Assembly: GCA_018267095.1 (NCBI GenBank)
Contig: JAFDZC010000018.1
Span: 434,001-498,000, forward strand
Reading direction: 5' to 3'
DNA: 64,000 bases
Source of the DNA: Bacteroidota bacterium
GTDB taxonomy: Bacteria; Bacteroidota; Bacteroidia; Flavobacteriales; Flavobacteriaceae
Shown: positions 8,528 through 64,000 of the stretch, piece by piece
Layout: each line of letters starts with the position of its first letter
Numbering within the stretch: the stretch's first letter is position 1
Notes under the pieces: generated by a model
Told to the model about the DNA's origin: nothing
Seen by the model: only the letters and a program-made list of their open reading frames with translations
Database searches by the model: none
Translations under genes and position numbers: made by a program

Positions 8528-8556
8528 GCTTTAGCGAATTTCATTCAAATCGCTGC

Positions 8557-8599
8557 AGATATCCCGAGTTTTCCATCGAATGCTCGGGATATCTTTTTT
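8557..8599 (+). terminator. Rho-independent terminator after ftsZ
   Basis: The arms AGATATCCCGAG (8557-8568) and CTCGGGATATCT (8583-8594) pair perfectly and are followed by a run of T. It marks the end of the dcw operon. Confidence 0.85.
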
Positions 8600-8666
8600 A
8601 TGGCTCTCTTTTGGTTATCTTGCTTGGGTAAAAAACAAAAATTACTTAATAACTAACAAATTAGCA

Positions 8667-9725
8667 ATGAAAAAAACGACAAAAGCTTTGTTATTGATGG
8701 CGGCCATTTCAATGAGTTCACTCTCTCAGGCGCAATTGGGCGGAATGCTTAAAAAAGCAGCTACCAAAGCAGCAGAAAATGTAGCAACCGGTAAATCCCC
8801 AGCAGCAGGAACAAGTGCAGCTGTTGGCGGTAGTAGTCCAGCTTTAGATTGGAGCCAATATCCTATGACACCTGCCATTACCATGAAATCATTATTAGAC
8901 GGTACAGAAGTGTCTGATAACGGTAATCTGAGAATGAATTTTTACCGAGCTACCTTTATTCCAAACAAAAAAGCTTCAGGCGGGAATGTAGATATGATCT
9001 ACGATAAAAACGTTTTAACCACCAAAGTATACGCTAACGGTCAGTTGATTAAATCACCTACCTACGGAGACGGAAGTTATTTCAATGATGGGAAACAAAA
9101 CACTTATCAAGACAACGGCAACCAGCAATCGGATTTGATGTTAACACAAGAAGGCAAGTATAAAATTGATTTCTTTGCCGGAGGAAAACAGATTTACACC
9201 TTTGATTTTGATGTTCATAAAAAGGCGGACACTGATCCGTATGCTGCCAGCTCAGTGCTTTGGTATTCAACAGGGCCTTGGGAAAAATGGGCATATGTAA
9301 CTCCACAGAGTACCGGAAACTTCATTTTCGGATTTTACTTGATGCACACCGATTTTAAACCAGATCCGAATAATGCCAGAAAAACAACTAAAAGCATCGT
9401 TTGGTACCCAGAACTAATGCAAAACGGAAAAACAATTTCAGTTCCAAACAAGCAAACTGCCATTGTAGAAAAAGGTGAATGGAAAGATTTCTCTTGCTCT
9501 ATGAAACTCGTGGGCGCAAAAGATTTCTTGAAAATAGCTGAACTCAAAGACGGAAGTTACACGATGAAGGTAACCGTTGACGGTGAAGCTGCGCCAAGAA
9601 TGTACGACTTTAAAGTAGCGGGCGGAGCGATTGTTTTGTGCGACAAGCAAGACCGCGCCAAAAACAAAGACCCACAAACTTTGGTTGAAGGCTGGAACAA
9701 TTATTTCTGGTTAGAGAAAAAATAA
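8667..9725 (+). CDS. Secreted protein of unknown function
   Basis: I do not recognise the family. From the ATG at 8667 the product has 353 residues and starts with a clear signal peptide (MKKTTKALLLMAAISMSSLSQA, cleavage probably after residue 22). An alanine- and glycine-rich stretch follows, then a mixed beta-type domain with many aromatic residues. An upstream in-frame ATG at 8580 is rejected because it lies inside the ftsZ terminator and would put the signal peptide 29 residues inside the protein. It is a single-gene unit with terminators on both sides. The export signal suggests a periplasmic or outer-membrane location; no function can be named from the sequence. Confidence 0.75.
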   Translation: MKKTTKALLLMAAISMSSLSQAQLGGMLKKAATKAAENVATGKSPAAGTSAAVGGSSPALDWSQYPMTPAITMKSLLDGTEVSDNGNLRMNFYRATFIPNKKASGGNVDMIYDKNVLTTKVYANGQLIKSPTYGDGSYFNDGKQNTYQDNGNQQSDLMLTQEGKYKIDFFAGGKQIYTFDFDVHKKADTDPYAASSVLWYSTGPWEKWAYVTPQSTGNFIFGFYLMHTDFKPDPNNARKTTKSIVWYPELMQNGKTISVPNKQTAIVEKGEWKDFSCSMKLVGAKDFLKIAELKDGSYTMKVTVDGEAAPRMYDFKVAGGAIVLCDKQDRAKNKDPQTLVEGWNNYFWLEKK

Positions 9726-9746
9726 TCTAAGCAACAAACCTGCTTG

Positions 9747-9786
9747 ATACCCCGAAAGGCTTCTGTTTTTCGGGGTATTTTGTTTT
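9747..9786 (+). terminator. Rho-independent terminator
   Basis: Arms ATACCCCGAAA (9747-9757) and TTTCGGGGTAT (9768-9778) pair fully and are followed by a T-rich stretch. It ends the transcript of the secreted protein upstream. Confidence 0.85.
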
Positions 9787-9793
9787 AAAAGAA

Positions 9794-9824
9794 TTCAAAA
9801 TCTAGAACATTTTTTGTAGTTTTG
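9794..9824 (+). promoter_or_regulatory. Possible promoter of the YqeY-like gene
   Basis: TAGTTTTG at 9817-9824 matches the Bacteroidota -7 box TAnnTTTG. A TTC (9794-9796) lies 20 bases upstream where TTG is expected. Transcription would start near 9830 and carry hairpin repeat copy B in the leader. Confidence 0.4.
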
Positions 9825-9836
9825 TCGGGCTTTTAT

Positions 9837-9909
9837 CCGGCTATCCGCTGCTATCTTTTGCGCCGAACCACGGCTCAAAAGGATATTCGCTTCTATCCGG
9901 AGCAGGGCA
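9837..9909 (+). repeat. Interspersed hairpin repeat, copy B
   Basis: The second copy of the element at 505-574. The core reads TATCTTTTGCGCCG, AACC, ACGGCTCAAAAGGATA. It keeps the AACC loop and the outer TATC/GATA stem while the inner stem bases differ, with pairing mostly preserved. It lies in the presumed leader of the YqeY-like gene. Confidence 0.75.
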
Positions 9910-9937
9910 TCAGAATTCACATAAAAAACTGCATCAG

Positions 9938-10387
9938 ATGAGTTTATCTGCAAACATCATGGAGGAAATCAAAACCGCCATGCGCGCCAAAGATACCGTG
10001 GCGCTCGAAGCTTTACGCGCGATTAAATCGGCTATTTTATTGGCCCAAACCGAAAGTGGTGCCAAAGAGGAATTGTCAGCCGACGAAGAAATTAAATTAT
10101 TACAGCGTTTGGTCAAACAACGCAAAGACAGCGCAACAATCTATACCGAACAAGGCAGAGCTGATTTGGCTGCTCCTGAACTGGCTCAAGTAGCCGTGAT
10201 TGAGAAATTCTTGCCGGCACAATTGTCAGAGGCAGAGATTGAAGCTGCTGTGGCTAAAATCATCTCAGAGAATGGTTTCTCAGGAATGGCGGCTATGGGG
10301 CAAGTCATGGGCATGGCTTCGAAAGAGCTTTCTGGGCAAGCCGATGGCAAAACCATTTCAATGATTGTCAAAAAATTATTGGCTTAA
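9938..10387 (+). CDS. GatB/YqeY domain-containing protein
   Basis: The 149-residue cytoplasmic protein is a stand-alone YqeY-type protein, a helical domain related to the C-terminal tail of the GatB subunit of the tRNA amidotransferase. The opening region ALEALRAIKSAILLAQTE and the segment YTEQGRADLAAPELAQ followed by FLPAQLSEAE match the family pattern. The C-terminal half has the glycine-rich turn and the QADGKTIS motif seen in these proteins. The exact cellular role is not established; a link to tRNA-dependent amidation is only inferred from the shared domain. It is probably monocistronic. Confidence 0.85.
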   Translation: MSLSANIMEEIKTAMRAKDTVALEALRAIKSAILLAQTESGAKEELSADEEIKLLQRLVKQRKDSATIYTEQGRADLAAPELAQVAVIEKFLPAQLSEAEIEAAVAKIISENGFSGMAAMGQVMGMASKELSGQADGKTISMIVKKLLA

Positions 10388-51419: not shown

Positions 51420-52271
51420 ATGAAAAAACTATCTACTTTAATCTTGTCACTTGTTGCTAGTGCTTCAATGATGGCAAATATCTCAGATGCAGAGAAAGAA
51501 GCTTTAGTTAAATTGAACAAAGCCACCAACGGAACTCAATGGACTAATAAATGGGATTTAAAAGCACCAGCAGAATCTTGGTTTGGTGTTAAGATTGTCA
51601 ATGATAAAGTGGTTGCCATTAATTTGCAAAACAATCACTTATCAGGAACGCTTCCTGCAGAGCTCGGAAACCTTGTGAATCTACAAAGTCTTAATTTGTT
51701 TAAAAATGATATTTCTGGGGTTATTCCGGCCACTATAGGAAACTTAAAACAACTAAGAACGCTCAATCTGGCATTTAATAAAATAGAAGGTAAAATTCCG
51801 GCTTCATTGTGCGAAGTTTCTGGTTTGGTTACCTTAGAATTGCACATGAACAGAATTTCGGGCGAAATTCCGACTAACATAGGGAATCTTCAACATTTAA
51901 GAACATTTTCAATGTACAACAATGAGTTGATTGGTAATATTCCTAATTCGTTGTACAACATCAAATCTCTAAAATCATTATTGCTGAGCAGTAACAAGCT
52001 CTCAGGAACTTTGGGAAGAGAAGTTGCCAACTTATCATCTTTAGAAAGTTTGAGTCTTTTTGAAAACAACATGCAAGGTCAAGTTCCATTTGATTTGGAA
52101 AAATTGAGCAATCTCAAAGAAATGAACATTTCTTACAACATGTTCAGTGGATTGGTTTCAAAAAATCTGGCACAACTCGATACACTCAATATGACCATGA
52201 TCAACGATAAAGGCTTGGCAGTGAATCTACAAGTAGCCGACAAATCTTCAGCTTTGGCCAACGAAGACTAA
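51420..52271 (+). CDS. Secreted leucine-rich-repeat protein, first of two paralogues
   Basis: The 283-residue protein has a signal peptide (about residues 1-20), an N-terminal cap of the plant LRR type (EKEALVKLNKATNGTQWTNKWD) and about seven leucine-rich repeats of 24 residues (for example LVNLQSLNLFKNDISGVIPA, LKQLRTLNLAFNKIEGKIP). It ends without a type IX sorting domain or membrane anchor, so it may be periplasmic. The repeats resemble plant receptor and polygalacturonase-inhibitor LRRs. The second copy is 63 bases downstream. Confidence 0.85.
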   Translation: MKKLSTLILSLVASASMMANISDAEKEALVKLNKATNGTQWTNKWDLKAPAESWFGVKIVNDKVVAINLQNNHLSGTLPAELGNLVNLQSLNLFKNDISGVIPATIGNLKQLRTLNLAFNKIEGKIPASLCEVSGLVTLELHMNRISGEIPTNIGNLQHLRTFSMYNNELIGNIPNSLYNIKSLKSLLLSSNKLSGTLGREVANLSSLESLSLFENNMQGQVPFDLEKLSNLKEMNISYNMFSGLVSKNLAQLDTLNMTMINDKGLAVNLQVADKSSALANED

Positions 52272-52334: not shown

Positions 52335-53186
52335 ATGAAAAGAATTACTACAGCGCTGCTGATGCTGATGGTTACCTTACCTATGCTCGCAGGAATTTCA
52401 ATGGCCGAAAAAGATGCCTTGGTAAAGCTCTACATTTCAACCAACGGCACCCAATGGAAAAACAAATGGGATCTCAATGCTCCGGTAAACAAATGGTTTG
52501 GAGTTAAAGTGAGCGGTGATAAAGTCATTGCGCTTGACTTGACCAACAACAACCTCACCGGACAACTTCCTGAAGAAATTGGAAATTTGGTCAACCTTCA
52601 AAAACTTAAATTGACTAAAAACCGAATTTGGGGCGCTATTCCAACAAGTATCGGCAATTTAAAAGAATTGAGAATATTGAATCTTTCTTTCAACTTGATG
52701 TCGGGTTCTCTACCAGTAGCTATAGGAAGCATGACAAATCTTCAATCGATTGAATTGTTCATGAATCAGTTTACAGGAAATTTACCGGCTGAATTAGGAA
52801 ATCTCAAACAACTCAAAAAGCTGTCACTGTACAACAACGAATTTGAGGGCGCTTTACCAGTTGCTTTGTTCGAGTTGACTTCTCTGAAAGTTCTTTTACT
52901 GAACAGCAATAAATTCTCAGGCAAACTTGATAAGAAAGTGGCCAATTTAACCAAACTTGAAGTATTTAGTTTGTTTGATAACAATCTGCAAGGACAAGTT
53001 CCTTTTACACTTGAAAAGTTAGGGCGTTTAAAAGAAATGAACATCTCATACAACGCGTTTTCAGGTCCGGTTTCTAAAAACCTTTCTGATTTGGATGCAC
53101 TCAACATGACCATGATCAATCAAGAAGGACTGGCAGTAAACTTGCCGGTGGCCGATAAAAACTCGGCACTCACCAACGAAGAATAA
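52335..53186 (+). CDS. Secreted leucine-rich-repeat protein, second paralogue
   Basis: Also 283 residues, with the same layout: signal peptide (about 1-19), cap (EKDALVKLYISTNGTQWKNKWD), about seven plant-type LRRs and the same C-terminal motif ALNMTMINQEGLAVNLPVADK. It is similar to the first copy along its whole length with many substitutions, so the duplication is not recent. It ends with a strong terminator 71 bases downstream, and the two genes form one operon. Confidence 0.85.
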   Translation: MKRITTALLMLMVTLPMLAGISMAEKDALVKLYISTNGTQWKNKWDLNAPVNKWFGVKVSGDKVIALDLTNNNLTGQLPEEIGNLVNLQKLKLTKNRIWGAIPTSIGNLKELRILNLSFNLMSGSLPVAIGSMTNLQSIELFMNQFTGNLPAELGNLKQLKKLSLYNNEFEGALPVALFELTSLKVLLLNSNKFSGKLDKKVANLTKLEVFSLFDNNLQGQVPFTLEKLGRLKEMNISYNAFSGPVSKNLSDLDALNMTMINQEGLAVNLPVADKNSALTNEE

Positions 53187-53378: not shown

Positions 53379-53451
53379 CGCGGGATAGAGCAGTAGGCAG
53401 CTCGTCGGGCTCATAACCCGAAGGTCACAGGTTCGAGTCCTGTTCCCGCTA
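53379..53451 (+). tRNA. Initiator tRNA-fMet, anticodon CAT
   Basis: The cloverleaf is complete: acceptor CGCGGGA with TCCCGCT, D stem GAGC/GCTC, anticodon stem TCGGG/CCCGA with loop CTCATAA, T arm ACAGG-TTCGAGT-CCTGT. Three features mark it as the initiator: the first acceptor base pair is a mismatch (C1 with T72), the anticodon stem ends in three G-C pairs, and the D stem has A11-T24. CCA is not encoded (CTA follows). A tyrosine recombinase gene lies directly downstream, so the 3' end of this tRNA is the likely attachment site of the island. Confidence 0.93.
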
Positions 53452-53473
53452 CTAAGTTAAAGTCTTAAAAACC

Positions 53474-53503
53474 AAACGGATTGTGTACGCAATCCGTTTT
53501 TTT
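53474..53503 (+). terminator. Terminator of tRNA-fMet
   Basis: AAACGGATTG and CAATCCGTTT pair around TGTACG-type loop bases, followed by seven T. Confidence 0.8.
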
Positions 53504-53532
53504 ATGGCTGCAATTTCGCTACTTTTACAAAA

Positions 53533-53552
53533 CGTACACGGTATCGTACACG
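53533..53552 (+). promoter_or_regulatory. Tandem CGTACACG boxes before the recombinase gene
   Basis: CGTACACG occurs at 53533-53540 and 53545-53552 (12-base period), nine bases before the ATG at 53561. The reverse complement GTGTACG occurs once in the terminator loop at 53483-53489. They could be recombinase arm sites or an operator that represses the gene. Confidence 0.4.
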
Positions 53553-53560
53553 TTTTTAAT

Positions 53561-54844
53561 ATGAAATTGAATTTTTCTGAACCCAAAATTTTTACCGGAG
53601 GCGTTGCTATTTCTGATTGGTCAAAACTATCAGATCAGCAAAAACAAGAAGCACTTGAAAAAGATTGGTATTTGTATTATTCCTATCGCAATCCCAAAAC
53701 AGGGAAATTAGAAAGACAACCCAACATCAAGGCCGGAGCCAATCGTTTTAAAACCAAAACAGAACGATTGTCTATTCTAAAAACACTGCAACGAAATTTA
53801 TTGTTTTTGTTAGAACAAGGTTTTAGCCCGTATGCGGATAATTCAGCTTTGGAAGGGAAGTTATTGCGTAATACTTCTGCTGATAATAATAAAGAAACGG
53901 TCATTCCAATAACAATTAGTCCGATTGATCCAACCATTATTAATAAATCTTTAATAACCATTTCTGAGGCTTTTCAATTGGCATTAAAGATTAAAAAGAA
54001 TGTTTTAAGTGCTACATCATACCCTAATTTCTCTAGTAATGTAAAGCGGTTTGAGATTTGGCTCAATGAAAACGGTTTTGAAAACAAAACTATAGATGCC
54101 ATTTCCAAAAAAACAGTTATTAAGTATTTGAATGTTGTTCTAGAGAATACTAGCCCAAGAACTCGCAACAATACCCGAATTGAATTGAGTTCGCTTTTTC
54201 AAACTCTAGAGGACAACGATGTTATTGTTGAGAACTTTGTCAGAAAGATCAATGTGCTTAAAGCAAAACCAGAACGAAATAAAACCTACAGCACAGCATT
54301 ACAAGAGGAAATATACAATTACATGGCTTTAAATGATCCGCTTTTGTTGTTGTTTGTAAAGTTTATTTCATACAACTATTTGCGCCCTATTGAAGTTTGT
54401 CGCTTGAAAGTGGGTGATGTTGATTTGAAAGACCAACGATTGTTTGTTCGTGCTAAAAATGCTCCCGTTAAAATCAAAATCATACCGCAAATCTTAATTA
54501 AAGACTTACCTGATTTGTCAAAATTGAATCCTAACGATTATTTGTTTACACCAACCGTTATTGGAGGAGAGTGGAACACCTCAGAAAACGATAAACGCGA
54601 TTATTTTTCTAAACGCTTTAAAAAAGTAAAAGACCACTTTAAACTCGGGACAGACTATGGTTTGTATAGTTTTAGACATACGTTTATCACTAAATTGTAT
54701 AATGAGTTTGCTAAAGTCATGACACCATTTGAAGCCAAAAGTAAATTAATGCTCATTACTGGTCACAATACAATGGATGCCTTAGAGAAATATTTGAGAG
54801 ATATTGATGCAGTTTTACCGGAGGATTATTCGGGGTATTTGTGA
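53561..54844 (+). CDS. Tyrosine recombinase (site-specific integrase)
   Basis: The protein of 427 residues (from ATG 53561) is a phage/ICE-type tyrosine recombinase. It has an N-terminal arm-binding region, a SAM-like core-binding domain (about 130-220) and a catalytic domain. The catalytic residues are visible: arginine in LRPIEVCRL, the lysine region RLFVRAKNAPVKIKI, the HxxR motif written as YSFRHTFITKL, histidine in ITGHNTMDALEKY and the nucleophilic tyrosine in that same motif. Longer starts (GTG 53483, ATG 53504) lie in the tRNA terminator. It presumably integrates the island into tRNA-fMet. Confidence 0.9.
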   Translation: MKLNFSEPKIFTGGVAISDWSKLSDQQKQEALEKDWYLYYSYRNPKTGKLERQPNIKAGANRFKTKTERLSILKTLQRNLLFLLEQGFSPYADNSALEGKLLRNTSADNNKETVIPITISPIDPTIINKSLITISEAFQLALKIKKNVLSATSYPNFSSNVKRFEIWLNENGFENKTIDAISKKTVIKYLNVVLENTSPRTRNNTRIELSSLFQTLEDNDVIVENFVRKINVLKAKPERNKTYSTALQEEIYNYMALNDPLLLLFVKFISYNYLRPIEVCRLKVGDVDLKDQRLFVRAKNAPVKIKIIPQILIKDLPDLSKLNPNDYLFTPTVIGGEWNTSENDKRDYFSKRFKKVKDHFKLGTDYGLYSFRHTFITKLYNEFAKVMTPFEAKSKLMLITGHNTMDALEKYLRDIDAVLPEDYSGYL

Positions 54845-54966: not shown

Positions 54967-55737
54967 ATGATTTTCTTATTGTTTATGATAATAAAAAAGC
55001 TTCTTAGAAAGATTTTAATTGCGGATTTGCCTGAAGAGAGCCTTGGTCATAATGTTCTCTGTCATCAGTGGCAAAACGCAGCTGACATATGGAATAATCA
55101 AAATAATGGAAAATCTGACTCAATTGGTGTTGAAAGAATACTCAAATTAGTACTTATATTATCTCAGTTTTTTTTTCTAGGAATATACTTTAGAGCAATT
55201 TTCGGAAAATATGGTAAACTCCACAAACATCTAGGAGTTGAACTGCATGTCGTTCTAAAATTAATTTCATCAATCACTATACTATATTTTGGTATTTACA
55301 ATTCAACTACGTCAATTTATGGAGTCCATATAATTAAGTTTTGGTGTTATTGGATGATATTTGAAACTCTATTTTACACAGGCAACTTAGTTTTCAGTGA
55401 GGAAGTTTTTGCTAAACCATATTCTAATAAAAGGAACCTAATTTTAATAGTTATTGACTACATAACTTTAAACCTTGATTTTGCCAACCTTTATTTAATA
55501 AAAAGAGCTATTCATCAAAGTTTACATCGTGACACCATTGAAATTGTATCTAACGCCTATGATGCAGTTTATTTTAGCTTTATTAGTTCATTAACTATCG
55601 GATACGGTGATATTACTCCAACTCATGAAGGTAGGAGTTTAGTGGTATTTCAAAGTATAACAATGTTGGTTTTTGGAGTACTTTTTTTAAACTTTTATTT
55701 GTCTAGAGCTAATGATAGCATCGGTAGCAGGAAATGA
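54967..55737 (+). CDS. Predicted potassium channel protein
   Basis: The 256-residue protein has four or five membrane segments (about residues 58-78, 95-110, 120-143, 158-178 and 225-245) and a pore loop just before the last one. The pore contains the selectivity filter TIGYGD (210-215) in SFISSLTIGYGDITPT, a standard K+ channel filter with T-I in place of T-V. There is no cytoplasmic RCK or cyclic-nucleotide domain, since the protein ends soon after the last helix. An alternative start is the ATG at 54985. It stands 33 bases before the SIR2 gene as the first gene of the operon. In a defence context, an ion channel often acts as the membrane-disrupting effector; here that is inference. Confidence 0.85.
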   Translation: MIFLLFMIIKKLLRKILIADLPEESLGHNVLCHQWQNAADIWNNQNNGKSDSIGVERILKLVLILSQFFFLGIYFRAIFGKYGKLHKHLGVELHVVLKLISSITILYFGIYNSTTSIYGVHIIKFWCYWMIFETLFYTGNLVFSEEVFAKPYSNKRNLILIVIDYITLNLDFANLYLIKRAIHQSLHRDTIEIVSNAYDAVYFSFISSLTIGYGDITPTHEGRSLVVFQSITMLVFGVLFLNFYLSRANDSIGSRK

Positions 55738-55770
55738 ATAGTAAGAAAATTAACAATAAAAGATAATCAA

Positions 55771-57069
55771 ATGAAAGTACTTCATGACCCGTCAGAATAT
55801 ATAAGAGGAATTCAACAAATACTTATCTCTGATAAAAAGAGAATTGGGTTTCTATTTGGTGCTGGAAGTTCACTTTCGAGAAAAAGCGAAAAGTCACTTA
55901 CAGTGCCCGCAATTGGTCAAATGACTACTGATATTGTAAAAACAGCGGGAGAATTAGAAGGAAAGTATAAAACCGCACTTGAAGAGATAAGGATAGAAAT
56001 AGGTGAGCAAAATTTCAATATAGAAACAATTTTATCTAACCTTGAACAAAAAGCAAGTTTTATAGGCGGTGGAACATTAAACACTTTGCAAAAGGAAGAT
56101 TTCGAAAATCTCATAGTCGAGATTAAAAAGAATGTTAGAAAAATGGTTAGCGTCCACAAAATTGAAGAAACAAAAATCGCAACTAAAGATATTGTAAGTG
56201 AGTTGGTTCAGACTGATTTTGCTAACTGGATAGGTCAAGCGGAAAGAAAATATCCGATTGAAATATTTACTACAAATTATGACTTCCTTTTTGAACTTGG
56301 TTTAGAACACAAAGAAATTCCATACTATGATGGATTTTGTGGCAGTCTTAGACCTTTTTTCAATCCTGAATCTGTCGAAGATTTTGAGTTTTTGGCAAAG
56401 CAAACAAAGCTTTGGAAGATACACGGTTCTTTAGGTTGGCATTTTGACAAAGACACAGAGAAGATATTAAGAGTAAACCCTGATGATGATGATATTTTAA
56501 TCTATCCATCCTCATTAAAATATAAAGATTCAAAAAAACAGCCGTATGAAAGTTTACTTGATAGGTTATCAAATTTTTTAAAAAAAGACGATTCAATCCT
56601 TATTACCTGCGGTTATTCTTGGGGAGACGAGCATATTAATTCAAGAATTATTTCAGCTTTAAAAACCAATACAACATCCCACGTCATTGGATTGATTTAC
56701 GACAAATACAAAAATAAGGATGAGAAATTCGAGTATTCACTAACCCCTGAGAGCAAACTTTCTGAACTGGCAAAAAGCAATTCAAAAATTTCAATTTATG
56801 GAGGGAGAAACGCCATCATAGGATGCAATTATGGTGAATGGTGTTTAAGAACTGAACCGAGTAAAGAAGATACTGTAAATGTGGTCTTATATTTTGATGA
56901 AGATGGTCCAACAGATTCAGAGGAATTGAATAAAGAATTTAAAGGAACAGAAAAATGGACTGGAAATGGAGAGTTTATTTTGCCAGATTTTAGCAAACTC
57001 GTTAAGTTTTTGAATGCTATGATTAGCGACAATGAAATCAAAAAAATTGGAGCAAATGTCAAAAAATAA
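55771..57069 (+). CDS. SIR2-family NADase-like defence protein
   Basis: The 432-residue protein has a SIR2-like Rossmann domain with FLFGAGSSLS (residues 27-36), TTNYDFLFE (N169 of the NAD site) and KIHGSLGW (H218). The C-terminal half (GYSWGDEHINSRIISAL) is typical of the SIR2_2 group found in anti-phage systems (ThsA, Dsr, SIR2-HerA). In these the asparagine and histidine cleave NAD+ on phage infection and stop cell growth. Both are present here, so NADase activity is likely. The stop overlaps the HerA start by 14 bases, which indicates coupled synthesis as in known SIR2-HerA pairs. Confidence 0.88.
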   Translation: MKVLHDPSEYIRGIQQILISDKKRIGFLFGAGSSLSRKSEKSLTVPAIGQMTTDIVKTAGELEGKYKTALEEIRIEIGEQNFNIETILSNLEQKASFIGGGTLNTLQKEDFENLIVEIKKNVRKMVSVHKIEETKIATKDIVSELVQTDFANWIGQAERKYPIEIFTTNYDFLFELGLEHKEIPYYDGFCGSLRPFFNPESVEDFEFLAKQTKLWKIHGSLGWHFDKDTEKILRVNPDDDDILIYPSSLKYKDSKKQPYESLLDRLSNFLKKDDSILITCGYSWGDEHINSRIISALKTNTTSHVIGLIYDKYKNKDEKFEYSLTPESKLSELAKSNSKISIYGGRNAIIGCNYGEWCLRTEPSKEDTVNVVLYFDEDGPTDSEELNKEFKGTEKWTGNGEFILPDFSKLVKFLNAMISDNEIKKIGANVKK

Positions 57070-58843
57070 AATTACAGAAATAGGGGAAATTGATAGTATT
57101 AGCGGGAACAATATTTCCGTCAAGCTTTTTGATAATATTAAGTCAAATATGCCTGTTATTGACGGTGTTGTCTATAGAGTTGGTCAGATTGGTTCTTTCG
57201 TAAGAATTCCTTTGGGATATGCTAATTTATATGGCATTGTAACTCAAATTGGTTCGGGGGCGATACCTGATAGTTTAAAAGAAATCTATTACAAAGATTA
57301 TGATTCTTTTAAAAATACGAGTTGGATAAATATTGTTCTAGCAGGTGAACAAGTTGGTAAGAGATTCGAAAGAGGTATAACCCAATATCCAACAACTGGC
57401 GACAAAGTTCATTTAGTTACAATAAACGATTTAAACATTATTTACGGTGGGTATGAAGATTCCAATTCAATTACCGTTGGAAATATAAGCGTCTCTGAAA
57501 GTCTTGATGCAAAAATTGATCTAGATAAACTCATCTCAAGACATTGTGCTATAGTAGGTTCCACAGGTAGTGGTAAATCCAATTCAGTTTCAGTCTTACT
57601 TGAGTCAATCGCAAAAAGAAATTTTCCAAGTTCAAGAATATTAGTAATTGACCCACACGGCGAGTACAATGATGCTCTTTCAAAACATTCCAGAGTTATT
57701 GAAACCAATTCAAAAGAAGTTGAAAATAAACTATATATACCTTTTTGGGCATTACCTTTCAATGAATTAATGAAAATGTTTTCGGGGACTATTTCAGATG
57801 CCAATAGGGAATATATTAGAGAAAAAGTTGTAGAAGCTAAAATTGCTAGTGCAAATGAAAACAAATTAGATGTTCCGAAAGAAAGCATTACAGCTGATTC
57901 CCCAATTCCTTTTAGTATCAAACAGCTTTGGTTTGAGCTAGATGATTTCGAAAGACAAACATATCTTGAAAGAGCTAAACCTGAAACTATTACTGAAAAA
58001 ATACAAATTGGTGATGCCGATAAATTGAAATCAAATTTGTATCAACCTGCAAGTGCTGGTGGTGGTAGTCCTTTTTTAAATAATCAAGCAAAAGGCATTT
58101 TGGGTTTTTTAGATAGTGTAAGAAATCGACTTAATGATTCGAGTTATAATTTTCTATTCAATCCAGGAGATTTTACACCAAATCTACGAGGGAAAATACA
58201 ATCAGATATTGATAGTTTGTTTATCGATTGGTTAGGAAACCCATTACCCATTACCATTTTAGATTTATCAGGAATTCCGAGTGAGATAATGTCTTCAATT
58301 TCAGGAACACTTTTAAAAATAATCTATGATGGTTTATTTTGGGGAGTTAATACTAAAGTTGGAGGGAAAAACCAACCCTTGTTAATTGTTCTCGAGGAAG
58401 CGCATAGTTACTTAAAGGCAGGAGAAGACTCAATATCTTCAAGAACTGTTCAAATGATTGCAAAAGAAGGAAGAAAATACGGTGTTGGATTGTTACTTGT
58501 AACTCAAAGACCTTCTGAATTAGATGAGACCGTTCTTAGTCAATGTGGGACAATGATAGCTTTGAGGATGAACAATTCTAAAGACAGAGGGCATATAAGG
58601 TCTGCCGTACAAGACGAATTGCAAAGTATGGTTGATTTACTTCCAAGCTTGAGAACAGGGGAAGCATTAATTTCAGGAGAAGCAGTAAAAATACCTTCAA
58701 GAGTTAAATTCTTTAAAATATCTAATGCTCCAAAAAGCTCTGATCCAAAAGCTTCGGAAAAATGGCTTCAAACAATTGAGAATACTGAAACCGAATACAA
58801 AAGCCTTTTAAAATCTTGGCGAAATAAAAATTATAAATTATGA
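57056..58843 (+). CDS. HerA-family hexameric ATPase
   Basis: The 595-residue protein from ATG 57056 has an N-terminal HAS-barrel-like region (about 1-150), then a P-loop ATPase with Walker A GSTGSGKS (168-175), an IDPHGEY motif and Walker B LIVLEEAHSYL (E447, E448), followed by LLVTQRPSELDETVLSQC and the C-terminal arginine region. This is the HerA/DUF87 family of hexameric translocases. In SIR2-HerA systems a HerA hexamer assembles with SIR2 and is needed for defence. The frame also has an ATG at 57032, inside the SIR2 gene; 57056 has a GGAG sequence at the right distance and is preferred. The KTSC gene overlaps its stop by four bases. Confidence 0.92.
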   Translation: MSKNKITEIGEIDSISGNNISVKLFDNIKSNMPVIDGVVYRVGQIGSFVRIPLGYANLYGIVTQIGSGAIPDSLKEIYYKDYDSFKNTSWINIVLAGEQVGKRFERGITQYPTTGDKVHLVTINDLNIIYGGYEDSNSITVGNISVSESLDAKIDLDKLISRHCAIVGSTGSGKSNSVSVLLESIAKRNFPSSRILVIDPHGEYNDALSKHSRVIETNSKEVENKLYIPFWALPFNELMKMFSGTISDANREYIREKVVEAKIASANENKLDVPKESITADSPIPFSIKQLWFELDDFERQTYLERAKPETITEKIQIGDADKLKSNLYQPASAGGGSPFLNNQAKGILGFLDSVRNRLNDSSYNFLFNPGDFTPNLRGKIQSDIDSLFIDWLGNPLPITILDLSGIPSEIMSSISGTLLKIIYDGLFWGVNTKVGGKNQPLLIVLEEAHSYLKAGEDSISSRTVQMIAKEGRKYGVGLLLVTQRPSELDETVLSQCGTMIALRMNNSKDRGHIRSAVQDELQSMVDLLPSLRTGEALISGEAVKIPSRVKFFKISNAPKSSDPKASEKWLQTIENTETEYKSLLKSWRNKNYKL

Positions 58844-59061
58844 GTGTACCAGAAATGATTCCAGTAAGTTCTTCCAATATTGAAAGTATTGGTTATGACG
58901 AGCAAAACGAACAAGTTTATGTAAGATTCCTTAATGGAAGTCTTTATGTTTATAAAGGTGTTCCTTTGCGCGAATTTGAAGATTTACTAAATGCTCCTTC
59001 ATTAGGGTCGTATCTTCATAGAAACTATAAAAATGTTTATCCCTATGAAAGAATCGGGTAA
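58840..59061 (+). CDS. KTSC domain small protein
   Basis: The 73-residue protein is a single KTSC domain, a small domain first seen at the C terminus of lysyl-tRNA synthetases. The pattern SSNIESIGYDEQNEQVYVRF, then NGSLYVYKGVPLREFEDLLNA and GSYLHRNYKNVYPYE is well preserved. KTSC domains occur alone or fused in mobile elements and are thought to bind nucleic acid. The gene starts within the HerA stop (ATGA, four-base overlap) and its 3' end overlaps the next gene, so it is an integral part of the operon, not a stray frame. Its role in the system is unknown. Confidence 0.82.
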   Translation: MSVPEMIPVSSSNIESIGYDEQNEQVYVRFLNGSLYVYKGVPLREFEDLLNAPSLGSYLHRNYKNVYPYERIG

Positions 59062-60091
59062 AGATTTAATAAAAATCAACCAACAACTCAAACGAGTCGA
59101 AATCAAAGAATTCGAAATCGAAAATCAAATCGTTTTTAATTATTTTGACAATCTTCCTGCAAACGAAAGAGATGATAAATTGCTTAAAGCTATTTATATA
59201 GGCGTGTTGGCGCTCATGGAAGATCGGATTTCAGCTTTTCTTGCCAAAACGAATAATGAGTTAGGAACAGAATTAGAAAGTCTGAAGATGATTTTCGAAA
59301 TGAAAAAAGAATTGTTCTACAAATCCACCATAAAAGGAAGTTTGGCAGAAGAAGATATTGCTGAGTATCTAAACAATTTTTTTATCGAAAAACGTATAAA
59401 AGACAGGGCGTTTCTTACCGGAAACACATCTGGAAATTTACCAAGAAATAAAACAGGTGATATCATTTGCGAAGTCAATAGTTTACCTGATTTAAGGATT
59501 GCAATTGAATGTAAGTTTGATAAAAGCATCCGTTTAGGGGATATCGAAACGAAAGAAATATTTACCCGTAAAACCGATACAGCATGGAGTCAACTTTTGG
59601 AAGCGCAAGCTAACCGCGACGCAAAGGTCAGCTTAATTGTTTTTGATATTTCATTAGTTGACAATTCAATTTTGAAAGTATTTGATAATGTAGGTTATAT
59701 TCACGGAGTCGGTTTTGTAGCGATTATTGACTCTCAAAAAGGGAATTATTCTAATCTTGCGATTGCCTATATGTTAGCTCGGGATATTGCTGTGAACGCA
59801 AAAGTTATTGATATTGACAAAGACGTTTTGGCTATGATGGTTAACAGGATTATTAAAGACATCAATGAGATTCTTTCTATAAAGACATTAGTAACTCAAA
59901 ACATCGACAACAATAAAGCAATACTGAAACAGCTAGAAAAATCAGTTCTTTTAATGGAATTCAATCAAGAATATTTGAAACGCTTTTTAAGTCAAGGAAC
60001 TTTAACCAAAAAAGATTTAATGGATTTTTATATGGGTGAGGATATCAAAGACAGGTTTAAGGTTATTGAAAAAGACATAGACCAGCTATAA
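59045..60091 (+). CDS. Predicted PD-(D/E)XK nuclease
   Basis: The product has 348 residues from ATG 59045 (an alternative ATG at 59033 adds four). An N-terminal helical, coiled-coil-like region leads to a nuclease-like core. Counted from 59033, an acidic helix GSLAEEDIAEYL (E106, E107), then TGDI (D143), then IAIECKFD (E159, K161) follow the order of the PD-(D/E)XK superfamily, and TAWSQLLEAQANRDAKVSLIVF continues that fold. A second helical region forms the C terminus. I do not recognise a named family. The gene overlaps KTSC and is followed by the helicase after 28 bases. DNA cleavage is predicted, not shown. Confidence 0.72.
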   Translation: MKESGKDLIKINQQLKRVEIKEFEIENQIVFNYFDNLPANERDDKLLKAIYIGVLALMEDRISAFLAKTNNELGTELESLKMIFEMKKELFYKSTIKGSLAEEDIAEYLNNFFIEKRIKDRAFLTGNTSGNLPRNKTGDIICEVNSLPDLRIAIECKFDKSIRLGDIETKEIFTRKTDTAWSQLLEAQANRDAKVSLIVFDISLVDNSILKVFDNVGYIHGVGFVAIIDSQKGNYSNLAIAYMLARDIAVNAKVIDIDKDVLAMMVNRIIKDINEILSIKTLVTQNIDNNKAILKQLEKSVLLMEFNQEYLKRFLSQGTLTKKDLMDFYMGEDIKDRFKVIEKDIDQL

Positions 60092-60119
60092 CTGTTTTTT
60101 AATACAATTTTAACGAATA

Positions 60120-63100
60120 ATGGAATTAACAGGTAAACTTTTAACAGAACTTCAAAGAAGGTTAAAAATAGGTAACCGCAGAGGAGTTCATTTGAATGCA
60201 ATTCCGGCAAATTCTCGCTATAAGTTTGATTTGAATAGACTTGCTAGTATTGATAAAAACTTACCCAATAGTTTCTTAGATGCTTTACTTACCGAACTAC
60301 CGTTAAAGTTTAGAATTAGTTGGAAAGACAATGTTCCTGATTTGAATTCGCTTTTTGAGGAGGATCAATCTCAACTTGTTAAAATAACGAAGGCATTTGA
60401 AAACCTTATTAACCAAACGGAAGTGATAGAGTCAGAAAAAGGAATAAATACTTTCGGGTTTGGTTTTCCCATTTTGGTTAGAAGAGACAAAGCAGATAAC
60501 AAATTAACTGTAGCTCCGATATTAATCTGGTCTTTGAGGATAAAAAGAACTAAAGAGTTTAATACTTGGGAAATATTAAGAAACGAAGAGGATCCTATTT
60601 ATGTGAATGAGGTTTTAATTAATCATTTACAAAGTGATATCGGCATTGAGATAGAACAAATCCCTCAAGAAATGTTGGATGATGGTTTAATCAGCAAAGA
60701 GGAACTTATTGAAATTTGTTCAAAATTAATTAGAGCCGTCAACACTATTTCCCCAGAAGACATAGAAGACACTTTAAAGAAAAAGTTAGTTAATATCGTT
60801 TCAATAGGAGATAAAGCACACTATGAAAAGTTACCATTGAATCCTTCAAATTCATTTATTGATTTTGGAGGGTTGTTTTCAATATATGAAGTTCAAAAGC
60901 AAAATATAATCAACGATTATAACAACCTCATGGAACTCGAGAGTATGCGAATCAATCTTGAGGATATGAATGAGCATCATTTTCAGTCTATATCTTCGAT
61001 TGAAACCGATCCAACACAACAAAGTATTCTTCATTCGTTGGAATCAACAAGAAATATTTTGATTCAAGGCCCTCCGGGAACTGGCAAGAGTCAAACACTT
61101 ACCGCCGTTTTAATCAATGCCCTAGAAAATAATAAAAAAACAATCGTTGTTTGTGAAAAGAGAACCGCTTTGGAAGTGTTGCACAACGCCTTAATTGAAA
61201 AGGGATTAAACTATCATTGTGTTTTAATTCGAGATATTATAAAAGACAGGAAAACGGTTGTAGATTCAGTAAGGGATAGAGTCGATAACTCAGAATATAA
61301 GCGATATCGGTACAATTATTCCAAAGAGTCTTTAGACAATATAATAAATAAAGCCAAAAATCTAATACAGAGTATCAATAAGAAGCATCAAAAAATCGGG
61401 GAGGAAATCTTTGGCGATAAAAATTGGACAAAAATTGTTGGAAAGTTATTGAAAGAGCAAAAGAATTTCAATAACGAAGTTAACTTGAACATTGACAAAA
61501 ATAGGTTTGAGTACAACACTCAAGAGTTAAATACGTTGCTTGATTTATTACAAAGGGGGCAGTTCCTTTATGAAAGTTATTTGCCGATATCTTCAAGGTC
61601 GTTCTTAAATTCTTCAAAGTTTATGAGCGATAACCCTTATTTGATTGAGCAGAAAATCAACGAAGATTTTGATTTTTATTCATTTCAACTTAGCGAAGTT
61701 AAAAAACTTCATGAGCAAGTCTCTTCGGAATTTTATGAAAATAGAAAGTCAGCGTTTGGACGGCAACTCGATAGAGTTAACAATATTATTGATTCAATTA
61801 GTATTGTATTTCAAAAAAATGAGCAGAATGAAGATTTAATTAATGAATCAAGAATCAACAGTTTTTTCTACAAGATAACTTCATTGTTTTCAGGCATCAA
61901 AAAGGAAACGATATCTGATTACAAAAAGTTGCAGTTTTTATTTTCACAGTTAGAAAATGAAATGCAGCTTTCAAAAGATTTACCTTCAATACGTTTTGAT
62001 GGCAATTTACTTACGAAGAAAAAAGAATTTAGTGACTGTATTAACAATATTGAAATAACAAAATCGCAATTTGAAATCACAATTCAAAATGAGTTCAAGA
62101 AAATAGATCTACTACAATCAGATTTAAACGAATTTGACTTAAAAAGTTTACCCCGTTTGAAAGAGAAGCTATTTGCTCTAGAAGACAAAATCAAGAATGA
62201 CAATTGGGTAAATGAGAAAATTGAACTTAGTGAATTTGACAACTTCTTGAATAACGTTACAGATTTAATTCATCATAAAAAAGAGTATTTCAATACCGAT
62301 TATGATTTATTTACTATTGAATTTAAATGGTTTCAATTTTATAATTCTCTATCTGAGATTAACAAATCAATTGTTGACGAATTAAAGTCTAAATCCAATT
62401 GGAGTAAAACTTTTATGGTTTTTTACCTTAACTCAATGCTTGTTAATTCGGCTAGTTTGGATTTACCCACCAATGATGAAGAACATAAAGAGCTTGACTT
62501 AGCTTTGAATTCAATTGAGAGCGAACAATTCAAATTCATCAGAGAGTTTTGGTTTTCAAAACAAATCGATTTGACACGAGAATTCGAACAAAGGAATACT
62601 AACCTTTCAGTTGAAAATCTCTATAATAAAAGAAGTAGCAACAGATTTAAAAGGCTTTCTCTGAGACAAATTGTTCAGTATGATGCTGACTTATTTACCA
62701 ATTTCTTTCCGATTATTTTGACCTCTCCTGACGTAGCAAGTAATCTTTTTAAAGGGATGAATGGGTATTTTGATATTGTGATGTTTGACGAGGCGAGCCA
62801 GCTTAGACTTGAAGATAACTTGCCAGCAATCTTGAAAGGCAAACAAATCGTCATTGCAGGTGACGAACATCAAATGCCTCCATCCAGTTATTTTAGTAAG
62901 ATGTTTGATGGTTCTATCGAAGATGAAGAAGATATTGAAGAAGAAGAAATTGTTGTAGACAGAGACAATATGTTGCTTTCTTGTGAATCATTACTTGATT
63001 TTGCATCGGAACTTAACTTTCAAAAAAAACATTTAGATTTTCACTATCGTTCGCGACATCCTTTTTTGATCGACTTTTCAAACTTTGCTTTTTACAATCA

Positions 63101-64000
63101 GAGACTGAAACCATTACCAAATAATTTTGATTACACTCCAATAAAGTACATCCAAGTGAATGGGACTTTTTCAGAACATACTAATGATGCAGAAGCTGAA
63201 ATGGTCTTGTCGATAATAGACAAAAATATCAACAGATTGCCGAATGGGAAATATCCGTCTCTGGGCATTGCAACTTTTAACATAGCACAACGGAATCTCA
63301 TAAAGAGTAAAATCATTGAAAGACAAAAGTTTTCAAAATTTGAAGCATTCAATAGCAAAATTCAAGAGCTAGAAGAAAACGGAATGTTCATTAAGAATCT
63401 AGAAAACATTCAAGGGGATGAGCGCGATGTTATTATATTATCAACAACCTATGGTGTGAGTAAAGACAGAAAATTTGCGCAAAGATTTGGTCCAATAAAC
63501 CACTCAAAGGGATATAAGTTGTTGAATGTTATTATAACCAGAGCAAAATATAAAGTGTATTGTTGCACCTCTATTCCTGAACAGGTATTTTTGAATTACA
63601 AAGATTATTTGATTACTGAAGGTTCAAATAATAAGAGAGCAGTGATGTATGCTTATCTTGCCTATTGTAAAGCAGTAAGTGAGTCGAATAGTGACTTAAG
63701 ACTTTCTGTTCTTACTACTTTGGCCGAAAATACTACTAAAAGTACTGGTTTTGATGTATATCGGGGAGGCGATTTGGAATCACCTTTTGAGGAAGAAGTA
63801 TATCAGAGTTTAGCTGATCATTTTGGTACGGAAAAATTGATAATGCAGCTTCCTTACGCTGGATTTCGAATAGATATCGTTTATGATCCAAAATTAGTTG
63901 GTGTACCCAAAATTGCTATCGAATGTGATGGTGCAAAATATCATTCAAGTAATGAAGCCTATTTATACGATATGCACAGGCAAAAAATCCTTGAGAAACA
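60120..64000 (+). CDS. Very large SF1 helicase with C-terminal restriction-endonuclease-like domain, cut by window end
   Basis: The reading frame is open for at least 1293 codons from ATG 60120 and runs past base 64000. Walker A is GPPGTGKS (residues 317-324), the next helicase motif is IVVCEKRTALEVLHNAL, and the Walker B motif is MFDEASQ (D890, E891). Later SF1 motifs follow: IAGDEHQMPPS, DFHYRSRHP, NIQGDERDVIILS and VIITRAKYKVYCC. A long coiled-coil-rich insert of about 450 residues separates motifs I and II. The C-terminal domain shows SPFEEEVYQSL (1221 on), FRIDIVY and AIECDGAKYH (E1268, D1270), the pattern of the Vsr/MTES_1575-type nuclease. The layout matches helicase-nuclease fusions of defence islands. 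Confidence 0.9.
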   Translation, partial: MELTGKLLTELQRRLKIGNRRGVHLNAIPANSRYKFDLNRLASIDKNLPNSFLDALLTELPLKFRISWKDNVPDLNSLFEEDQSQLVKITKAFENLINQTEVIESEKGINTFGFGFPILVRRDKADNKLTVAPILIWSLRIKRTKEFNTWEILRNEEDPIYVNEVLINHLQSDIGIEIEQIPQEMLDDGLISKEELIEICSKLIRAVNTISPEDIEDTLKKKLVNIVSIGDKAHYEKLPLNPSNSFIDFGGLFSIYEVQKQNIINDYNNLMELESMRINLEDMNEHHFQSISSIETDPTQQSILHSLESTRNILIQGPPGTGKSQTLTAVLINALENNKKTIVVCEKRTALEVLHNALIEKGLNYHCVLIRDIIKDRKTVVDSVRDRVDNSEYKRYRYNYSKESLDNIINKAKNLIQSINKKHQKIGEEIFGDKNWTKIVGKLLKEQKNFNNEVNLNIDKNRFEYNTQELNTLLDLLQRGQFLYESYLPISSRSFLNSSKFMSDNPYLIEQKINEDFDFYSFQLSEVKKLHEQVSSEFYENRKSAFGRQLDRVNNIIDSISIVFQKNEQNEDLINESRINSFFYKITSLFSGIKKETISDYKKLQFLFSQLENEMQLSKDLPSIRFDGNLLTKKKEFSDCINNIEITKSQFEITIQNEFKKIDLLQSDLNEFDLKSLPRLKEKLFALEDKIKNDNWVNEKIELSEFDNFLNNVTDLIHHKKEYFNTDYDLFTIEFKWFQFYNSLSEINKSIVDELKSKSNWSKTFMVFYLNSMLVNSASLDLPTNDEEHKELDLALNSIESEQFKFIREFWFSKQIDLTREFEQRNTNLSVENLYNKRSSNRFKRLSLRQIVQYDADLFTNFFPIILTSPDVASNLFKGMNGYFDIVMFDEASQLRLEDNLPAILKGKQIVIAGDEHQMPPSSYFSKMFDGSIEDEEDIEEEEIVVDRDNMLLSCESLLDFASELNFQKKHLDFHYRSRHPFLIDFSNFAFYNQRLKPLPNNFDYTPIKYIQVNGTFSEHTNDAEAEMVLSIIDKNINRLPNGKYPSLGIATFNIAQRNLIKSKIIERQKFSKFEAFNSKIQELEENGMFIKNLENIQGDERDVIILSTTYGVSKDRKFAQRFGPINHSKGYKLLNVIITRAKYKVYCCTSIPEQVFLNYKDYLITEGSNNKRAVMYAYLAYCKAVSESNSDLRLSVLTTLAENTTKSTGFDVYRGGDLESPFEEEVYQSLADHFGTEKLIMQLPYAGFRIDIVYDPKLVGVPKIAIECDGAKYHSSNEAYLYDMHRQKILEK

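Follow-up and report, generated by a model that had tools for sequence, protein, structure and literature searches.

The stretch of DNA analysed here, called the window throughout, comprises 64,000 nucleotides of a Flavobacteriaceae genome (Bacteroidota bacterium, assembly GCA_018267095.1, contig JAFDZC010000018.1, positions 434,001 to 498,000) and carries, towards its end, a co-directional array of genes encoding a K+-channel-like protein, a SIR2 NADase-type protein, a HerA ATPase, a small KTSC domain protein, a predicted PD-(D/E)XK nuclease that we call NUC and a large helicase-nuclease (Table 1). Our check of the open reading frames (ORFs) placed all six on the plus strand and reproduced the intergenic spacing of 33, -14, -4, -17 and +28 on which a sequence-only reading of the window had built a six-gene defence system; the tRNA and integrase that this reading had put beside the array are also there, together with an attachment repeat. 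The grouping of the six genes as one unit did not hold. As judged from gene order in relatives, the recurring unit is SIR2-HerA-KTSC-NUC (window 55771-60091), and the channel, the helicase-nuclease and a BRCT protein encoded further on are unrelated cargo.

Table 1. Features of the array and of the island that carries it (window positions unless a locus label is given)
Feature	Position	Strand	Remarks
tRNA-Met	53379..53452	+	island integration site; ARAGORN, Rfam
Left attachment repeat	53410..53556	+	second copy (146/147 identical) beyond the window at contig position 510006-510152
Tyrosine integrase	53483..54844	+	Pfam Phage_integrase 6e-8
K+-channel-like protein, co-directional cargo outside the conserved core	54967..55737	+	Pfam Ion_trans_2 2e-11; TIGYGD filter by eye
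SIR2 NADase-type protein, core gene 1	55771-57069	+	Pfam SIR2_2 5e-13; gap of 33 after the channel
HerA ATPase, core gene 2	57032..58843	+	Pfam DUF87/HerA 3e-38; alternative ATG 57056 gives -14
KTSC domain protein, core gene 3	58840..59061	+	Pfam KTSC 3e-22; overlap of -4 with HerA
NUC, predicted PD-(D/E)XK nuclease, core gene 4	59033..60091	+	alternative ATG 59045 gives -17
Inferred recombination breakpoint relative to L036	59161..59196	+	changepoint 59186
Helicase-nuclease, separate cargo	60120..63998 in the window, continues beyond	+	full gene L002:8121-12494, 1457 aa
BRCT protein, C-terminal BRCT domain	L002:12497-13387, beyond the window	same as array	

The SIR2 protein matches PADLOC family PDLC04093 (1.4e-121) and PDB entry 8w9l (2e-52), and HerA matches PDLC04105 (1.8e-157) and 8wiv (8e-152). 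The genes of these two families are adjacent and overlapping, as in the SIR2-HerA defence system, and the defence role that the sequence-only reading had assigned to the pair is well supported by these matches. SIR2 residues N169 and H218, which we take to be the active-site Asn and His of the NADase, and HerA residues G176, T178-S183 and E455-E456, presumably its Walker A and B motifs, are at least 95% conserved (alignments of 34 and 35 rows). The KTSC protein matches 7x8c, 4rgi and residues 633-696 of 8wiv, an alignment that shows a C-terminal KTSC domain in the solved HerA, and the domain is likewise fused to the HerA C-terminus in relatives L053 and L071. Elsewhere among the loci described below, a KTSC domain is joined to a PIN-like domain (L063, 938-1909) or stands at the C-terminus of a protein cluster containing HATPase_c_4 (six loci: L037, L040, L044, L046, L051 and L086). 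Nonsynonymous divergence (dN) is far below synonymous divergence (dS) in all four core genes for the close pairs compared.

NUC itself matches no Pfam, NCBIfam or PADLOC family at the limits used. In an 81-row alignment E106, D143 and E159-x-K161 are invariant (columns filled in at least 75 rows), and in an AlphaFold model with strands at 125-128, 144-147 and 155-161 the motif E...D...E-x-K falls in order on the right elements; among PHROG families a RusA-like resolvase was matched (5e-5). The invariant motif residues, a middling model and weak Foldseek matches together predict a PD-(D/E)XK nuclease. The gene is rare: relatives were found in one of 72,556 plasmids (a Paracoccus plasmid), in one of 296 genomes of the order, which is the window's own, and in three of 395 genomes sampled evenly from the phylum (own included), all three adjoining SIR2-HerA; SIR2 at E 1e-10 is present in 39 of these 395 genomes. 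None of 50,697 phage records matched, and a scan of viral contigs restricted to two peptide patterns returned one relative, again behind SIR2-HerA.

For the comparison of gene neighbourhoods, loci with a NUC relative were gathered with the peptides of this NUC and the best 80 of 104 were kept; their genes were called by a longest-ORF script, which missed some small or overlapping genes. A second set was anchored on SIR2, 20 of the 41 SIR2 matches (own included) being examined with their flanks. The channel was found in none of the 80 NUC loci and a helicase relative adjacent to NUC likewise in none (L062 has a partial helicase match, at a distance of more than 9 kb and in the opposite orientation), and the BRCT gene was present in one, L108, as a 64% relative about 1 kb downstream of NUC; at least 1.5 kb lies beyond NUC in 69 of these loci and less in 11. 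The SIR2-anchored loci contained SIR2 with HerA in 19 cases, KTSC in five, NUC in two and the channel, the helicase or the BRCT gene in none, with at least 5.7 kb beyond HerA in 16 loci and less than 1.4 kb in the other four. KTSC accompanies all 30 of the NUC loci that have SIR2-HerA, as a separate called gene in 26, as a HerA fusion in two and as a gene missed by the gene caller and detected by search in two.

Comparison of individual loci gave the same limits. The DNA of the window aligns with that of L036, a Crocinitomicaceae relative, at 91.8% only over 55783-60091, a stretch bounded by the start of SIR2 and the stop of NUC, and the alignment leaves out both channel and helicase. Loci L067 (Bacteroidales) and L069 (Muricauda) share 4.5 kb at 92.9%, which corresponds to the four core genes with about 50 bp before and about 120 bp after them, and on the Paracoccus plasmid pPZ02 the order SIR2-DUF87-KTSC-NUC is found behind an IS91 transposase with other, unrelated genes around. 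Because the two surveys, the L036 alignment and pPZ02 show only SIR2-HerA-KTSC-NUC together, we consider the unit to be one of four genes. We rejected SIR2-HerA as the sole conserved part because in unrelated genomes (L036, L067/L069 and the Paracoccus plasmid) the pair moves together with KTSC and NUC. A search of other genomes for the six-gene order thus recovered only these four: among the genes that the sequence-only reading had added to SIR2-HerA, KTSC and the nuclease belong to the unit, while the channel and the helicase, whose relatives lay away from the core where examined, do not. The outcome named there as contrary, conservation of the SIR2-HerA pair only, came half true, the conserved part being four genes, not two and not six.

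The array in itself would suit one dedicated multi-layer defence system of six or eight genes, with the channel as effector and the helicase as sensor. Its spacing is tight and co-directional; beyond the window the helicase is followed on the same strand, after 2 bases, by the BRCT gene and then by a gene for a protein of 164 aa; a terminator-like hairpin follows this eighth gene; and a Bacteroidota promoter motif was not found in the channel/SIR2 or NUC/helicase gaps. Channels can also travel with defence-like genes: one channel relative (L156:707-1462, genome G550) adjoins what appears by eye to be a P-loop ATPase gene, and because of this neighbour channels of this kind may be defence effectors in other settings. 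However, relatives of the channel occur in seven of the 296 genomes (own included), and the other six are without core genes in the DNA examined, one of them on a 3.5-kb contig. Helicase relatives at E 1e-80 are present in at least five of the 296 genomes (own included; two candidates per genome were scored, so that helicase counts are lower bounds), and those of the four other genomes sit in different contexts, one between genes resembling restriction-modification (R-M) genes and further genes; a 69% relative in G307 is without core genes. For the BRCT protein, the neighbourhoods of nine of 11 other matches were examined. Together with the absence of channel and adjacent helicase from both surveys, the single BRCT gene among the 80 NUC loci and the limits of the L036 homology, gene order already largely refutes a dedicated six- or eight-gene system, which we regard as highly improbable.

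The gene in front of NUC is not constant. Eight partner kinds occur across the 80 loci: SIR2-HerA in 30, an OLD-like ATPase in 17 and an AAA_13/PDC-S06 ATPase in 13, and among the rarer kinds an SMC-like protein with a membrane protein (6), PDC-S46 (3), an LmuB-like SMC (2) and a UG39 reverse transcriptase (2, immediately upstream of NUC in L075 and L106), so that 43 loci have another labelled partner than SIR2-HerA; the family names were checked on one or two members per kind. Where SIR2-HerA-KTSC lies further upstream of another partner (L062, L070 and L072), the locus was counted under the nearer one. Label counts exclude seven loci that received no partner label: L037, in which SIR2 and HerA are split into several ORFs with KTSC and NUC open, L051 and L063 with other KTSC proteins, L074 with none, the truncated L085, L114 at a contig end and L096, where an AbiA-like reverse transcriptase (7942-9999) is immediately upstream of NUC. 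Of the 78 loci with an upstream neighbour, 66 have a gap of -11 to 15 nt between it and NUC. Small WYL-like proteins of about 80-105 aa (C6 and C20) replace or accompany KTSC before partners other than SIR2; C6 has no Pfam match but is 95% identical to C20, a WYL protein. The small protein C4 resembles KTSC by eye, and with an hhalign probability of 5.7 we do not claim it as a relative.

Genes of R-M clusters are present in 17 of the 80 loci, and in six of these (L073, L075, L088, L090, L092 and L106) NUC and its partner stand between hsdS and hsdR of type I R-M loci (Hsd names by eye). NUC could on this account be a restriction enzyme sensitive to modification and moving together with R-M loci, the other modules being ordinary neighbours in R-M-linked slots, and its restriction-endonuclease-like fold matches would agree. 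The other 63 loci, however, are without those R-M clusters in the DNA examined, other methyltransferases not having been sought, and the Paracoccus plasmid locus, which is outside the 80, has no annotated R-M gene in 25 kb of an incomplete gene table; we hold this explanation to be quite improbable.

Pairs of related loci indicate how partners are exchanged. Loci L077 and L078 have about 6.5 kb in common upstream and more than 4 kb from NUC on, with SIR2-HerA-KTSC between them unalignable; L036 and L042 give the same pattern with 5.2 kb upstream and 1.3 kb from NUC on, and in both pairs homology is regained at NUC codons 1-10. Among 2312 pairs with aligned NUC, the modules are unalignable in 2060, of which 67 have at least 400 bp of alignable upstream DNA; 57 of the 67 differ in partner kind and 23 also align for at least 300 bp past NUC, locus pairs not being independent of one another. 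The window itself is chimeric relative to L036: dS is 0.11 for SIR2, 0.18 for HerA and 0.26 for KTSC and 1.94 for NUC, identity falls from 96% to 76% near NUC codon 51, and the changepoint at 59186 has twice the log-likelihood difference at 298.6, against at most 22.2 in 500 shuffles. These alignments show modules in front of NUC replacing one another, by inferred recombination at or near the NUC start.

The divergence of the four proteins separates them in the same way. In the 26 loci with the exact gene order, rank correlations of pairwise distances are 0.81 for SIR2-HerA, 0.76 for KTSC-HerA and 0.80 for KTSC-SIR2, and for NUC they are 0.23 with HerA, 0.16 with SIR2 and 0.35 with KTSC; by this measure SIR2-HerA-KTSC is co-inherited as one module that NUC hardly follows. 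We assign KTSC to the SIR2-HerA module on account of its co-divergence with HerA and of the loci in which the two are fused. These values bear on the idea of a NUC docked on the HerA hexamer, where it would degrade DNA pumped by HerA, as DUF4297 or NurA would on their HerA. HerA-nuclease complexes are established (PMC12198126 and PMC11291478), NUC adjoins HerA-KTSC in 30 of 80 loci, and SIR2-HerA loci are clustered on the NUC tree; against this stand the low NUC-HerA co-divergence beside that of SIR2-HerA and the similar NUCs that lack an immediately preceding HerA and lie behind OLD, ABC/SMC or reverse-transcriptase genes. Since NUC is largely decoupled from any one partner, tight docking is disfavoured, and we judge it improbable, and an autonomous DNase acting in series or in parallel is favoured.

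The NUC tree was built from 81 proteins by a quick method, with 15 of 78 inner branches starred. Partner labels change 34 times on it, against a shuffled mean of 38.6 and a possible minimum of 6; OLD, AAA13 and the remaining labels, taken singly, are not clustered, and the starred branches alone require at least four changes for SIR2-HerA, seven for OLD and seven for AAA13. Host class changes 12 times against 25.3 (63 rows) and host order 9 times against 19.8 (54 rows), and over 53 rows NUC distance tracks host order more closely, with a difference of 0.066 (p 0.001) as opposed to 0.012 (p 0.024) for partner. A NUC of the mobility or homing type, or one serving as a mere recombination anchor, whose cutting would promote exchange of the upstream module with no part in defence, would account for the exchange boundary that several pairs have at the start of NUC or close to it, for a NUC whose frame remains open in loci with a broken or missing partner (L037, L085 and L074) and for the weak matches to restriction-endonuclease folds. 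But NUC follows host order and does not roam freely, it is tightly coupled to the gene before it and keeps dN far below dS, and phage records are without it; such a role seems to us unlikely.

We therefore put forward, as the probable interpretation, a four-gene anti-phage cassette in which an NADase module of the SIR2-HerA kind is combined with an autonomous DNase layer in an exchangeable slot. Judging from the solved complexes of homologous proteins, SIR2 would assemble with a HerA hexamer and be activated by infection, and the activated complex would hydrolyse NAD+, so that the infected cell would cease to support the phage. KTSC would act as a nucleic-acid or regulatory domain, here a separate small protein and in others part of HerA. 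NUC is the constant downstream gene of a slot in which SIR2-HerA-KTSC, OLD-like, ABC/SMC-type and reverse-transcriptase modules take one another's place, and most likely would cut DNA during infection as a second layer, either supplying ends sensed by the modules or acting as a parallel effector; we infer its defence role because it is linked to defence modules. A broader proposal, which we advance only tentatively, is a platform of constant nuclease and variable partner, in which one autonomous DNase might serve unlike abortive-infection modules through KTSC- or WYL-type adaptors and a shared sensing of DNA ends or fragments made by NUC, new combinations arising by recombination at the NUC start. 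A fixed set of genes is the usual definition of an anti-phage system; in this case, chiefly across Bacteroidota, the uncharacterised NUC is fixed and the named system is replaceable. If NUC works with each partner, the question becomes which common signal or substrate suits NADase, OLD, SMC and reverse-transcriptase modules.

Several results weigh against the interpretation of a four-gene cassette with an exchangeable slot. NUC is absent from 18 of the 20 SIR2-anchored loci, so that most SIR2-HerA pairs are without it, and the partner shares are not free of bias, the loci having been retrieved with peptides of this very NUC and cut to the best 80 of 104. Partner labels taken together show slight clustering on the NUC tree (7 of 200 shuffles gave as few changes), SIR2-HerA alone is clustered (16 changes against 23.9 on shuffling, none of 500 as low), and within an order NUC distance also depends slightly on the partner (p 0.024). 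The labelled alphaproteobacterial loci are all SIR2-HerA (five of five), and exchange is for this reason seen only in Bacteroidota and a few other phyla. As to the nuclease, a sequence profile search of PDB gave no match up to E 10, the AlphaFold model is of middling quality (predicted local distance difference test 72.8, predicted template modelling score 0.46), and although restriction endonucleases, with many EcoRV entries, make up most of the 50 Foldseek rows shown, no row has E below 0.001. Finally, because the promoter motif was not found at the channel/SIR2 and NUC/helicase junctions, co-transcription of the core with its cargo is possible.

An island of about 22.7 kb carries the array; it extends from tRNA-Met to the second copy of a 147-bp attachment repeat, which contains the 3' half of the tRNA. 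The true start of the tyrosine integrase is probably the ATG near 53561, because the initial stretch of its ORF is the attachment repeat. The Rfam scan gave nothing besides the tRNA. By eye, opposite-strand genes further on in the island resemble YD-repeat proteins, and two tandem paralogous leucine-rich-repeat proteins (51420-52271 and 52335-53186) are encoded just upstream of the tRNA.

Compared with described systems, the cargo helicase shares with the Hhe/PDC-S37/ProA helicase-nucleases a DUF4011 domain, SF1-type helicase parts (AAA_11/AAA_12) and REase_MTES_1575 (1e-24), with strong profile matches, but it remains below NCBIfam cut-offs (355.8 bits against Hhe NF042953, with a curated cut-off of 2000), has after MTES_1575 a weak GreA/GreB-like C-terminus (2e-5, just below the Pfam cut-off) and is separate from the core. 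With HerA-DUF4297 and HerA-NurA the cassette has HerA and a nuclease in common; in PMC11291478 DUF4297 is described as docked tightly on HerA, whereas NUC matches no Pfam, NCBIfam or PADLOC family at the limits used and is not coupled specifically to HerA, in view of its other labelled partners and little co-divergence. One sentence of PMC9503650, given there as an unpublished observation, places HerA with a KTSC protein and an endoDNase in lieu of a sirtuin, and the argument takes as its basis that sirtuin and endoDNase are mutually exclusive. Here too an endonuclease gene accompanies HerA and KTSC, and the nuclease, which that sentence does not identify, may be the same; unlike the exclusivity stated there, sirtuin and nuclease co-occur in the window and in 30 of 80 NUC loci, which, should the two nucleases be identical, speaks against the published remark in the case of NUC.

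SIR2-HerA as such is already known. The constant-nuclease arrangement was not found described in the literature searched (CC-licensed papers, mostly as search listings); it is not mentioned in the HerA passages of PMC12839542, and sirtuin or SIR2 was not found in the text of PMC10853773. As described in PMC12198126, a SIR2 dodecamer sits on a HerA hexamer, nuclease and ATPase activities are reported and HerA opens the NAD+ pocket. The SIR2 and HerA of the window are related over most of their length, with key residues kept, to the proteins of 8w9l and 8wiv, which occur together in PDB entries 8wld, 8woc, 8wod and 8wof. The HerA of the known system has a C-terminal KTSC domain by alignment, whereas here KTSC is a separate gene, and a fourth gene, NUC, is appended that most SIR2-anchored loci are without. 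The window does not present a pair of two genes only, since KTSC and NUC move with SIR2-HerA, and we therefore classify the cassette as a variant of the SIR2-HerA system.

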